From: a virus
DNA: 31,745 bases
Direction: 5' to 3' (one strand)
Virus record (IMG/VR): IMGVR_UViG_3300036832_000320
Span: 1-31,745 of that record
The notes beneath the pieces are model-generated. The model made no database searches. It worked only from the letters and a program-made list of their open reading frames with translations, and was not told the origin of the DNA. The position numbers and the translations under genes are program-made. The stretch's first letter is position 1, and the number at the start of each line of letters is the position of its first letter. This document shows, in pieces, positions 3,974-7,768 of this stretch.

Positions 3974-4155
3974 GCGCGCGCGATTGCATCGCGACCTCGC
4001 ATGAGTGGCCGCAAGAATGGCAGGACGGCGACACCTGCAACTGTGGCCAGTTCTCCCTCACCACGGACGATGAAGGCGGCGTGCGGATCGACGAGGCCGC
4101 CGAGCCCGACGAGGACGACACCGAAACGCCGACGGCAGTGGACGGTGGCGCATGA
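3970..4155 (+). CDS. Small acidic protein with CxC motif
   Basis: A 61-residue, strongly acidic protein with WPQEWQDGDTCNCG near the N-terminus and an Asp/Glu-rich tail. It is coupled to both neighbours by 4-base ATGA overlaps. The CNCG element might bind a metal, but there are too few cysteines to call a zinc finger. Function unknown; possibly a DNA-mimic-like or accessory protein of the adjacent nuclease, which is only inference. Confidence 0.55.
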   Translation: MSARDCIATSHEWPQEWQDGDTCNCGQFSLTTDDEGGVRIDEAAEPDEDDTETPTAVDGGA

Positions 4156-5042
4156 TCGACACGATCACCGCCCCGATCACCAAGCCCGGGGTCTACGAGA
4201 TCCCCGCGGCGCAGTACCACCGCGATCCCTGTCCCGAGCCCTCGCTCTCGAGCTCGATCGCCAAAAAGCTCTGCCTCGCCTCGCCGGCGCACGCCGCGTA
4301 CGCCCATCCGCGCCTCACGGCCGACGCCGTTGAGGAGGAGGCCGAGGCCCTCGACGTGGGCACGGCCGCGCACGCGATCCTCCTCGAGGGGGTCCGCAAC
4401 GTCGTCATCATCGACGCGAAGGACTACCGGACCAACGCGGCCAAGGAGGCGCGCGACGCGGCCCGTCTGGCTGGCAAGACGCCGCTCCTGGCCGCGCGCT
4501 GGCGCGACGTCGAGAACATGATCGCCGCGGCCCGGCTGCAGCTCGATCACCACGTCGATGGCGCCGCGATGTTCACGCACGGCGAACCGGAACAAACCCT
4601 GATCTGGGTCGAGCGGCTCGACGACGATCCGGCCACCGATGTCTGGTGCCGCGCCCGGCTCGACTGGCTGCGCGACGGCGCGATCGACGACTACAAGACG
4701 ACGAGCGCGACCGCGAACCCGGAGACCTGGACGCGCACAATGTTCAGCGCCGGGCACGATATTCAAGCGGCGTGGTATCTCCGCGGCCTGCGCGCGATCG
4801 CTGGCCTCGATGACGCGATCTTCCGGTTCGCCGTGCAGGAGATGTATCCGCCGTATGTGCTCTCGGTGATCGGGCTCGGTCCGGACGCCTTGCTGCTGGC
4901 TGAGAAAAAGTGCCTCTACGCCCTCGAGGTGTGGCGCGAGTCGCGCGCGCGCGGCGAGTGGATCGGCTATCCGCGGCGCACGTGTTACGCGTCGCTGCCG
5001 ATGGCGCACGAGGCCTGGTGGTTGGAGCGGGAGTCGCGATGA
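4152..5042 (+). CDS. RecE-type PD-(D/E)XK exonuclease (DUF3799-like)
   Basis: This 296-residue protein matches the phage RecE/exodeoxyribonuclease VIII C-terminal nuclease family, which resects dsDNA ends for single-strand annealing. Diagnostic features are SSSIAKKLCLASPAHA near the N-terminus and GTAAHAILLEG (70-80). The metal centre is RARLDW (D171), then IDDYKTT (D180, K182), followed by Q205..WYLRGL. Length and motif order fit the family. It starts inside an ATGA overlap with the preceding gene. With the AAA ATPase at 6788 and RusA at 10214 it forms a plausible recombination set. No separate annealing protein such as RecT or Erf was recognised. Confidence 0.85.
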   Translation: MIDTITAPITKPGVYEIPAAQYHRDPCPEPSLSSSIAKKLCLASPAHAAYAHPRLTADAVEEEAEALDVGTAAHAILLEGVRNVVIIDAKDYRTNAAKEARDAARLAGKTPLLAARWRDVENMIAAARLQLDHHVDGAAMFTHGEPEQTLIWVERLDDDPATDVWCRARLDWLRDGAIDDYKTTSATANPETWTRTMFSAGHDIQAAWYLRGLRAIAGLDDAIFRFAVQEMYPPYVLSVIGLGPDALLLAEKKCLYALEVWRESRARGEWIGYPRRTCYASLPMAHEAWWLERESR

Positions 5043-5048
5043 GGCGTG

Positions 5049-5849
5049 ATGGCTGTCATTGATCTGGCCCGCGCGAATCGGATGACGCCAGCCGCGTACC
5101 GTCTCGAACGGGCGCGGATCCGTGACACCTACGGCGACACCGCGAAAGAGCGGCTCGGGGCCTACGAGCAATCGTTAGCCATGCTCTATCAGCAGTCGGG
5201 GTGGACGCAGGAGGAACTCGCTGCCGAGGAAGGGAAGACGCGGAAATGGATCGAGTATCGAATACGCTTCGGCCGCTTTCTAGCGCATGGAACAACTGTT
5301 CCAATTCCTAAAACCTTCGCCGAGGGACGCTTTCGTGGCTATTGGAATCGCACGACCGGCGAGAACGAACGACAGCGGTTCGACGCCGTCGCCCGCTTGA
5401 TCGAGGAGGAACTCACGCTCTCAAAGGATCGATCGCCGACGCGCAATGCGCCGATCGCGAAAGCCATCCTCGCCGCCTATGCCGACGGCGCCTATCACCG
5501 CCTCGCGACGATCGTGACCGGGACGGGCTTTCCGGAAACCGACGTGATTGCGGTGCTCGAACAAATGCGGACACGGCATACCCATCAGACCTTCTGCGAG
5601 CGACGGAAAGGAGGCACGTCCTGGAGTTATCGCATCGTCCGAGGACGCGGACGACAGATCGACGTCGAGATTCTCATGCATGAAGTGGGTCCGATCGTTC
5701 AGGCATTCAAAGCCGAAGGCCGTAAACACGTCGCCCGATGGTCCCCTGGCACCATCTCGACCTTGGCCGCCCGTCTTGAAGCCACACTCGAACGCCTGAC
5801 CCACGCCACCGCGCCGCCACCAGGCGCAGAAAGTGACGAATCACCATGA
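5049..5849 (+). CDS. HTH protein, first gene of a two-gene cassette
   Basis: A 266-residue protein. A helix-turn-helix lies at about residues 46-75 (SGWTQEELAAEEGKTRKWIE, then YRIRFGRFLAH). A second, winged-helix-like region lies at about 135-200 (IAKAILAAYADGAYHRLATI..., then WSYRIVRGR). A C-terminal helical segment follows. The pattern recalls bacterial HTH proteins of mobile elements, but no function is established to my knowledge. Base composition looks lower in GC than the flanks. The stop overlaps the start of the next gene (ATGA, 5846-5849), so the two are coupled. ATG 5049 is preferred to GTG 5046. Confidence 0.7.
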   Translation: MAVIDLARANRMTPAAYRLERARIRDTYGDTAKERLGAYEQSLAMLYQQSGWTQEELAAEEGKTRKWIEYRIRFGRFLAHGTTVPIPKTFAEGRFRGYWNRTTGENERQRFDAVARLIEEELTLSKDRSPTRNAPIAKAILAAYADGAYHRLATIVTGTGFPETDVIAVLEQMRTRHTHQTFCERRKGGTSWSYRIVRGRGRQIDVEILMHEVGPIVQAFKAEGRKHVARWSPGTISTLAARLEATLERLTHATAPPPGAESDESP

Positions 5850-6724
5850 CTAGTCAGACCGGCTATCAACTCGTCCAGGCAGAAGTGTTGCCCTTAACGC
5901 CCGAACTCGCCCGCGAATTTCGGGATCTCCCTGGTTCACCGACTGAGCGGGATCTCAACGGCAATCGTCTACAACATCTCCGGCGCAAGGCGGAAAAAGG
6001 GCAACTCGTCACGTTCCATTGGGCGAAGGCGCAACTTGAGGATTTGTGGATGCGCGTCAACGGGCAGCACAGTTCCACGATGCTCTGTGAACTGAATGGC
6101 GGGTTTCCGGAGGGCATCTTTGTTCACGTCGATTCGTACCGCGTGGATGATGCGGATGGCCTCGCCCTCCTCTTCCGGCAACTGGACGACCGGAAGTCTG
6201 GGCGATCCGCAGCGGATGTTGCGGGGGCCTATCAGAACCTAGAGGACGAGCTTCGCGGCCGGCTCGCTAAGCCGGTCGGGAAACTGGGCATCGAAGCGGT
6301 GACGTGGTATCGGCGCTTGATCGATGGCGTCCAGGTGAAGATCGGCGACGAGCAATATCACCTCTTCCATGAATCGGCGCTCCATCAATTCCTACTCTGG
6401 CTGAATGAAATCTTCAGCATCAAGACGCCGGAACTGCGTCGCGTGCCGGTCGTGGCGGCGATGTATGGCACCTTTGAAAAAAATGAAGAGGAAGCCCGGC
6501 GCTTCTGGGACCAGGTCGCCCGGGGCGGGGAGCAATTCGAGGACAGCGCGCCGTCGACCGTCTTGGATGAATGGTTGAAAACAGTCAAGGAAGAACGCAG
6601 CAGCATCAAGCCCGGCGAGTATTACCGCGGCTGCATTTATGCGTGGAATGCCTTCCGCGAAAACAAGCAACTGAAAGACATTCGGTGTGATATGCGGAAG
6701 GCCGCACAGATCATTTCCGACTGA
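5846..6724 (+). CDS. NGQH-motif protein (possible ParB/Srx- or DGQHR-like fold)
   Basis: A 292-residue protein. The segment VTFHWAKAQLEDLWMRVNGQ (about 55-74) followed by HSSTML resembles the DGHHR/DGQHR active loop of the ParB/sulfiredoxin superfamily, with NGQHS at 72-76. A conserved-looking block FRQLDDRKSGRS...DVAGAY follows at about 110-127. The rest is helical with an aromatic-rich middle. In ParB-type proteins this loop binds nucleotide, and in DndB/DpdB-like proteins it defines the DGQHR domain; neither activity is shown here. It is coupled to the HTH gene upstream and followed by a long hairpin. Candidate roles are partition, regulation or an anti-host/defence function. Confidence 0.6.
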   Translation: MTSQTGYQLVQAEVLPLTPELAREFRDLPGSPTERDLNGNRLQHLRRKAEKGQLVTFHWAKAQLEDLWMRVNGQHSSTMLCELNGGFPEGIFVHVDSYRVDDADGLALLFRQLDDRKSGRSAADVAGAYQNLEDELRGRLAKPVGKLGIEAVTWYRRLIDGVQVKIGDEQYHLFHESALHQFLLWLNEIFSIKTPELRRVPVVAAMYGTFEKNEEEARRFWDQVARGGEQFEDSAPSTVLDEWLKTVKEERSSIKPGEYYRGCIYAWNAFRENKQLKDIRCDMRKAAQIISD

Positions 6725-6733
6725 CGACTGAGC

Positions 6734-6779
6734 CCCTGGGTCAACTTCGGAATTTCCGAAGTTGATTCCAGGGCCCAGG
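6734..6779 (+). promoter_or_regulatory. Long palindrome/stem-loop before the AAA ATPase gene
   Basis: Two 12-base arms, TCAACTTCGGAA (6741-6752) and TTCCGAAGTTGA (6754-6765), are perfectly complementary around one T. They are extended outside by CCCTGG (6734-6739) and CCAGGG (6768-6773), giving an 18-bp stem with small bulges. A competing pair, CCTGGG (6735-6740) with CCCAGG (6774-6779), would hide the AGG that serves as ribosome site for ATG 6788. It is not a standard terminator because no U-tract follows directly. It could be an operator for a dimeric regulator or an RNA switch on expression of the next gene. Confidence 0.75.
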
Positions 6780-6787
6780 TGCATTTT

Positions 6788-7768
6788 ATGGCTTTCAGCT
6801 TCCGGCCTGCCGTGCGCGAGAACGTCGGCCTCCTGATCGGGCTGTCGGGGAGCTCCGGATCCGGCAAGACGTACAGCGCCTTCCGGCTCGCGAAAGGGAT
6901 CGCGGGTGACCAGGCCTTCGCGGTGATCGACACCGAAGCCGGCCGCGCGCAGCACTATGCCGATCAGTTCCGCTTCGACCACGGCGATCTGAAACCTCCG
7001 TTTCGCCCCGACGCCTACGCCGACGCGATCGCCGCGGCCGATGCCGCGCACTATCCGGTGATCATCGTCGACTCGATGTCGCACGAGTGGGCCGGGGAAG
7101 GCGGCATCCTCGACTGGCAGGAAGACGAGCTCGATCGGATGGCCGGCACCGACTGGAAGAAACGCGAAGCCGTCAAGATGGCCGCGTGGATCAAACCGAA
7201 GATGGCGCACAAGCAGCTAGTGCAGCGCCTGCTTCAGATCCGCGCGCACCTGATCCTCTGCTTCCGGGCCGAGGCCAAGATCGAGATGGTCCGCAACGCC
7301 GACGGCAAGATGGAGATCGTCGAAAAGAAATCGCTCACCGGGCTGCACGGCTGGATCCCGATCACCGAAAAGAATCTGCCGTACGAGCTCACGGCCTCCT
7401 TCCTGCTGATGGCGGATCGGCCCGGCGTGCCGCTGCCCATCAAACTCCAGGAGCAACACAAGGCGCTGTTCCCGCTCGACGTGCCGATCACCGAAGAGAG
7501 CGGCGGGCGGCTCGCGGCCTGGGCTGGGGGCGCCAGCGCTGCGCCCGCGCCCGCGATCGACTGGGTCGGCCGGATGACGGCGGCCACGACGAAAACTGCC
7601 CTGGCGGCCGTGGGACGCGCCCTGAAGGCCGTCTCGGGCCCGATGCCGGCCGACGAGCTCGCGACCCTGCGGGCCGCGTACGATGCGCGCCTGCAGGCGA
7701 TCACGGCGCCGATCGCGGCGACCGACATTGCCTGGACGCCGCCCGTGGACAAAGCGCCTGAGCCCTAA
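6788..7768 (+). CDS. RecA-like AAA ATPase (phage recombination type)
   Basis: A 326-residue P-loop ATPase. Walker A is GSSGSGKT (21-28) and Walker B is VIIVDS (91-96). The arrangement GLSGSSGSGKT...VIDTE matches the phage AAA_24/Sak4-like RecA-core proteins that assist ssDNA annealing or replication. The C-terminal quarter (about 250-326) is Ala-rich and resembles a linker plus a small helical domain. ATG 6788 is preferred to GTG 6779; CAGGTG lies about eight bases upstream, inside the hairpin region. Together with the RecE-like nuclease it probably replaces a classic exonuclease/annealase pair. Confidence 0.82.
   Translation: MAFSFRPAVRENVGLLIGLSGSSGSGKTYSAFRLAKGIAGDQAFAVIDTEAGRAQHYADQFRFDHGDLKPPFRPDAYADAIAAADAAHYPVIIVDSMSHEWAGEGGILDWQEDELDRMAGTDWKKREAVKMAAWIKPKMAHKQLVQRLLQIRAHLILCFRAEAKIEMVRNADGKMEIVEKKSLTGLHGWIPITEKNLPYELTASFLLMADRPGVPLPIKLQEQHKALFPLDVPITEESGGRLAAWAGGASAAPAPAIDWVGRMTAATTKTALAAVGRALKAVSGPMPADELATLRAAYDARLQAITAPIAATDIAWTPPVDKAPEP

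Follow-up and report, generated by a model that had tools for sequence, protein, structure and literature searches.

The fold shared by ParB and sulfiredoxin (ParB/Srx) and its DGQHR/DGQQR signature have been described previously (PMC4619093), as has the range of NTPs bound by this fold (PMC12704722). Among the ParB-family CTP clamps (KorB, Noc, Spo0J), KorB is a ParB-like clamp that is loaded at a short operator and exerts silencing at a distance (PMC11790492). A DGQHR/DGQQR-type loop on the same fold is found in DndB (TIGR03187) and GmrS (DUF262), and ParB/Srx proteins are present in the Dnd and GmrSD defence systems (PMC4619093). In phages, the DGQHR motif occurs in the PHROG5931 family (e.g. 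NVP1131O_04, DeadP gp52 and PFR1 Orf31), the cultured members of which are mostly annotated as hypothetical. For a reader protein whose gene contains its cognate DNA element, there are two phage precedents. In BstA-aba, the variant-specific aba element overlaps the start of the bstA gene and acts as DNA (PMC8585504). In lambda, the O gene contains ori, whose iterons are bound by the N-terminal half of O (PMC4488673).

The locus compared here with these systems consists of two genes, A and B, in a stretch of 31,745 nucleotides that was analysed as a whole and is called the window below (IMG/VR virus record IMGVR_UViG_3300036832_000320, positions 1 to 31,745; Table 1). The plus strand carries, in order, a Cro-like gene, the DUF3799 nuclease, A, B, the AAA_24 ATPase, DUF1376 and RusA, and the minus strand carries an integrase and an XRE repressor; this arrangement is that of a lambda-like early region in a temperate phage. 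An earlier note on this DNA had described two genes that overlap in ATGA, have a lower GC content than the neighboring genes, separate a RecE-like nuclease from an AAA ATPase and end at a long hairpin. All of this was confirmed by coordinates (overlap at 5846-5849), GC content (0.57-0.62 across the pair versus 0.66-0.73 in most flanking intervals), profile matches and an inverted repeat. From the computational evidence assembled here, we consider it probable that A and B form a ParB-like nucleoprotein module of temperate phages, made of two proteins and one site. Most of the information is carried by two features that the earlier note had missed, a palindrome inside gene A and exchangeable heads of its product.

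Table 1. Features of the A-B locus and its flanks in the window.
Feature	Position	Strand	Description
RecE-like PD-(D/E)XK nuclease (DUF3799)	4152..5042	+	Flanking gene upstream of gene A; E = 3e-13
Gene A	5049..5849	+	ATG 5049 to TGA 5849; 266 aa; N-terminal HTH, central winged helix, C-terminal helical tail
ParB/KorB-like HTH	5172..5288	+	Codons 42-80 of gene A; ends in presumed recognition helix, residues 65-80 (...TRKWIEYRIRFGRFLA)
Intragenic palindrome	5288..5303	+	TGGAACAACTGTTCCA, arms TGGAACA and TGTTCCA around AC; overlaps codons 80-85; presumed operator or parS-like site of A
C-terminal tail of A	5655..5807	+	Codons 203-253; present in every B partner; presumably docks B or mediates dimerisation
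Gene B	5846..6724	+	ATG 5846; 292 aa; ParB/Srx-like fold and helical C-terminal half; PHROG5931 family
SPTER motif of B	5936..5950	+	Counterpart of N-x-N-R in DGQHR relatives; T33, E34 and R35 invariant in 27 sequences
RVNGQHSS motif of B	6053..6076	+	Counterpart of DGQHR (D to N, R to S); VNGQHSS part at 6056-6076
Long hairpin	6731..6777	+	3' of gene B; probably terminator or 3' end structure; perfect 12-bp inverted repeat at 6741-6765
AAA_24 ATPase (Sak4-like by resemblance)	6779..7768	+	Flanking gene downstream of gene B; E = 5e-10

Searches of Pfam, NCBIfam and PADLOC with the window proteins alone gave nothing usable, and B alone matched a single PHROG family, PHROG5931 (E = 1e-8), over its C-terminal part. 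The same family was matched by all 27 relatives of B; those in the 27-sequence alignment come from three viral-contig scans. One weak tblastn match was to Vibrio phage 1.131.O; its protein NVP1131O_04 has the sequence VDGQHRL and belongs fully to PHROG5931 (E = 2e-61). Only through this match were distant cultured relatives reached, in 94 records of cultured phages. HHalign aligned the B family with 11 cultured-phage DGQHR proteins over 254 columns (probability 98, E = 1e-13); in this alignment NGQHS coincides with DGQHR, and the AWNA...I..I ends also correspond. The similarity to the cultured proteins thus comprises the full length, the motif order and this C-terminal end, and several of them likewise have an upstream HTH or ParB-like partner. 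In contrast to them, B and its relatives in viral contigs have NGxHS at the place of DGQHR; B has SPTER for N-x-N-R and is always paired. Judged by its sequence, B is a member of the phage DGQHR family PHROG5931, and because NGxHS replaces DGQHR we assign it to a diverged subfamily. R70, which lies two residues upstream of N72, is invariant in the alignment, as are N72, H75 and S76. Since the latter three are invariant in 27 relatives, the VNGQHSS match to the ParB/Srx and DGQHR loop, which the earlier note had pointed out, is not due to chance.

The structure model of B (pLDDT 85, pTM 0.83) retrieved Noc, ParB-N and sulfiredoxin first in a Foldseek search of the PDB (E weak at 0.02, probability up to 0.94, with low TM-scores), and phage ParB-like, DndB-like and GmrS-like proteins in a viral library (E down to 1e-5). 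By this model, the N-terminal half of B likely resembles the ParB/sulfiredoxin fold; neither profile nor structure comparison of the product of 5846-6724 brought up an unrelated fold. Unlike DndB and GmrS, B has no curated-profile match to PF14072 or TIGR03187 (its cultured relatives have sub-threshold matches only), and no sulfur-modification or HNH partner was seen in the pair. TIGR00180, which describes ParB/RepB/Spo0J proteins with the CTPase domain and the HTH in one chain, matched neither A nor B. An enzyme-like role of B, proposed in the earlier note, is unproven: its subfamily has lost D and R of the DGQHR motif, and without these residues B may no longer bind nucleotide.

Several distant relatives of B occur in other settings. 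The Vibrio phage 1.131.O homolog (L043 3995-4804) is solitary, lies on the opposite strand between structural genes and is moron-like. By eye, an HTH is fused to the DGQHR protein of Brevundimonas phage Domovoi (L053 2054-3355), and a NUMOD-like, DNA-binding-like N-terminus to that of Vibrio phage eugene (L044 2231-3298), where a ParB gene then follows. In the mycobacteriophages Jolie2, Bipper and Lemuria (L056, L059, L061), a DGQHR gene lies directly upstream of RecE/RecT-type recombination genes. The toxicity reported for gp52 of mycobacteriophage Girr (PMC11075535) was not applied to B; Girr is absent among the DGQHR matches listed.

The DNA-binding partner proposed in the earlier note can be strongly inferred for A. 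Its HTH_ParB match is sub-threshold; among its relatives HTH_ParB and KorB matches are also sub-threshold, and HTH_23 scores above the cut-off in one of them. In the structure model (pLDDT 81, pTM 0.46, so that domain placement is uncertain), helices span residues 54-61 and 65-80, and the central winged helix matches MarR/ArsR folds.

In each of the 28 distinct records whose upstream side is intact, the window among them, the gene immediately before B encodes the partner, in agreement with the predicted co-occurrence of the two genes. In four records the head of the partner is unrelated to the HTH type: it is ParB-like and contains a DGRSR/DGKTR loop of its own in the partners from L029 and L040 (the former partner matching TIGR00180 at E = 3e-7, below the curated cut-off), DUF3102-like in L041 (by eye) and of another kind in L035. 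A 51-residue tail profile, built from 24 HTH-type partners with the swapped-head partners left out, was searched against 3454 ORFs and retrieved exactly the partners in L040, L035, L029 and L041 (E = 2e-12, 1e-10, 5e-7 and 4e-4; next match 0.79). Cultured phages repeat this pattern: DeadP gp51 with a DUF3102-like head and Ecliptus gp58 with a ParB-like head have a common tail, and the B proteins behind them are 82% identical. HHalign between the tails of the window-type and cultured-phage groups was not significant, and a DNA-binding partner is missing next to roughly half of the cultured PHROG5931 genes examined. In L029, L040, Ecliptus, eugene and phiAH14a, B adjoins ParB-like proteins that keep their own ParB/Srx domain, so that describing B as the lost half of a split ParB would be too simple. 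On the most economical reading, the effector B is constant and docks on the tail, and the head reads the DNA.

In different phages the pair adjoins recombination genes, repressors or capsid genes, as expected of the transferable unit suggested in the earlier note. In L011 (772-4707), it directly precedes scaffold-like and capsid-like genes and not early genes. We considered A-B as part of a recombination cassette and rejected this: the neighbors vary, and the YqaJ/ERF genes present in many records are often kilobases away or on the opposite strand. A survey outside phages gave no plasmid match for the pair and none in GTDB genomes with the few peptide patterns used; by tblastn and peptide patterns, no close relatives were found in cultured phages, plasmids or GTDB genomes.

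A scan for inverted repeats revealed that a near-perfect palindrome is often present inside gene A. In the window it directly follows the recognition-helix codons; taken alone it has p = 0.046, and significance comes through the relatives. When the entire gene is searched for its best perfect palindrome, this falls within one 30-nt interval in 18 of 23 HTH-type A genes; 12 of these 18 share an identical center, located 27.5 nt beyond the first base of the FGRFL codons. Randomisation of synonymous codons yields a combined p of 2e-21, a value that overstates the strength as the genes are related; gene starts were chosen by frame and the records are fragments. No palindromes of this kind occur in B genes, where arms do not exceed 7. 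Of the 16 contigs matched in the scan, 15 contain the site just once. The 79-kb contig of L027 has its 20-bp site TTTATGCCCATGGGCATAAA twice, in gene A and far away, just after a major-capsid-like gene (L084 3718).

The sequence of the palindrome varies among phages (in L007 it is TTTACGCCAACTGGCGTAAA). Its outer TTT...AAA is mostly kept, which explains the local dip in GC at the site, and the inner bases vary with compensation. The covariation score of the half-sites is 0.72 versus 0.16 in shuffles, none of 500 of which reach it, and 94% of the cells are paired in register versus at most 44% when the halves are slid. The distance between recognition helices tracks the distance between half-sites over and above the rest of the protein (partial r = 0.40, p = 2e-4); helices reading KKQQWI and KGQQWI, for instance, are accompanied by TTTACGCC half-sites. 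Palindromes with 9-15-bp arms lie inside the partner gene in six of eight cultured-phage partners. Arm lengths in partners are 14 bp in L041, 15 in R1 gp05, 13 in PFR1 Orf30, 12 in DeadP gp51 and in eugene ParB, 11 in Ecliptus gp58 and 9 in phiAH14a ParB; synonymous shuffles reach them in 0 of 400 cases, except for phiAH14a ParB (4 of 400). L019, L029, GD43A-5 and Mvi have no clear palindrome. PFR1 Orf30 has a second palindrome with 11-bp arms in the tail codons (L045 2291-2319).

The hairpin downstream of B has a folding energy 4.0 s.d. below dinucleotide shuffles in the window, where it lacks a T run. A strong hairpin lies within tens of bases of the B stop codon in most records, in some with a T run; examples besides the window are L004, L007, L011, L014, L021, L022, L025, L028, L030, L031, L033, L035, L040 and L041. 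As a candidate site of A this hairpin was rejected: it is in terminator position, its form varies among records, and the window holds no second copy.

We propose that a dimer of A would bind, via the N-terminal HTH, the single palindrome embedded in its own gene, that the C-terminal tail would recruit B to this site, and that B, with its ParB/Srx nucleotide-binding fold, would act there as a nucleotide-gated switch. DNA binding by A is strongly suggested by the helix and site data; the A-B contact through the tail and nucleotide binding by B are likewise predictions, which we infer from the constant tail and from the fold. The probable outcome would be an NTP-gated complex assembled at a single position of the phage's own genome, within the early operon, just as KorB and Noc build complexes from their sites. 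Exchange of the head would carry the site along, because reader and site share one gene segment. The locus resembles KorB, Noc and Spo0J in the ParB/Srx-like fold, the ParB/KorB-like HTH and a predicted palindromic site; with its outer TTT...AAA and variable inner bases, the site presumably is similar to the KorB operator. In contrast to these clamps, the site reader and the nucleotide-fold protein are separate, the site is usually single-copy and inside the reader gene, and ParA is missing.

This last feature bears on partition, one of the roles suggested in the earlier note. A ParBS system of a prophage-plasmid would account for the ParB-like parts and for the single candidate parS-like site in gene A. 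A ParABS-type system is unlikely, however, because no ParA-family ATPase (PF13614) was matched in 22 records, some of which may be fragments; the integrase in the window also means that the prophage need not be a plasmid, and we regard partition as highly improbable. Equally remote is an RNA hairpin in the A mRNA, acting by riboregulation or translational coupling in place of a DNA site. Inverted repeats can also form RNA hairpins, but loops of 0-2 nt and the correlation with the recognition helix argue against this, and no G-T (in RNA, G-U) pairs occur at the variable positions 5-7 in spite of three to four pair types, which therefore indicates a double-stranded DNA site. That A is a simple autorepressor, which binds an operator in its own gene and blocks its own transcription with B as a co-factor, fits the operator-like site in the first gene of the pair, the early-operon position and the hairpin closing the unit. 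It leaves unexplained the constant presence of B, a tail of about 50 residues kept while heads change, and a site fixed to one codon position, and we find it distinctly unlikely.

Two further explanations build on the precedents above. If A-B were a prophage defence with self-immunity, it would block replication of incoming phages, the element in gene A would be the self mark, and each variant would answer only to its own element. As with aba, the element is intragenic, single-copy and variant-specific and overlaps the gene that encodes a DNA-binding phage protein; exchange of heads would suit an escape from cross-immunity, and both the solitary, opposite-strand Vibrio phage homolog among structural genes and the ParB/Srx proteins of GmrSD and Dnd are compatible with defence. 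On the other hand, the defining features of aba are direct repeats, terminal and located at the start of the gene, and not a palindrome after an HTH, BstA is a KilA-N protein without a partner whereas Pfam scans found no KilA-N in A or ten of its relatives, PADLOC gave no real match for the pair, and a frequent position in an early lytic operon beside recombination genes is less usual for defence genes. We hold this explanation to be unlikely. A replication module of the lambda O-P type, with A as an initiator that has its origin inside its own gene and a constant C-terminus recruiting B as a loader-like protein, seems more unlikely still. The C-terminal half of lambda O contacts P, and the exchangeable reader head, the cognate site in the gene, the constant tail for a partner and the locally AT-rich site follow the same logic. 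Yet the several iterons and the AT-rich unwinding region of an origin are replaced by one palindrome with a GC dip due to TTT/AAA, and B resembles ParB/Srx and not an AAA+ or P-type loader. Replication genes are also present elsewhere (DUF1376 in the window, annotated replication initiation genes in PFR1 and R1), and in L011 the pair lies beside structural genes.

For the ParB-like module that we prefer, the most likely purpose is, in our view, to control or organise the early operon and its DNA transactions locally (autoregulation, replication or recombination); self-marking for defence comes second and partition last. Self-marking would mean that the exchangeable reader and its own site are one specificity cassette, with the constant tail delivering a ParB-fold NTP switch that marks the phage genome as self. 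We regard this version as unlikely, and nothing speaks directly for the counter-defence role considered in the earlier note. If true, the module would be a ParB-derived self-recognition or counter-defence system that has not yet been described and is widespread in phages.

Genes of the B family, annotated as "hypothetical" or "ParB-like nuclease" and with no known role, are present in many phage genomes. The anatomy described here, an exchangeable reader with an embedded cognate site, a constant dock and a ParB-fold partner, turns them into a testable system in which the site is predicted for each phage to within a base pair. The locus also offers some twenty natural pairs of helix and site from which DNA selection by ParB/KorB-type HTHs could be read, and it bears on the role of the many ParB-fold proteins of mobile elements that lack ParA.
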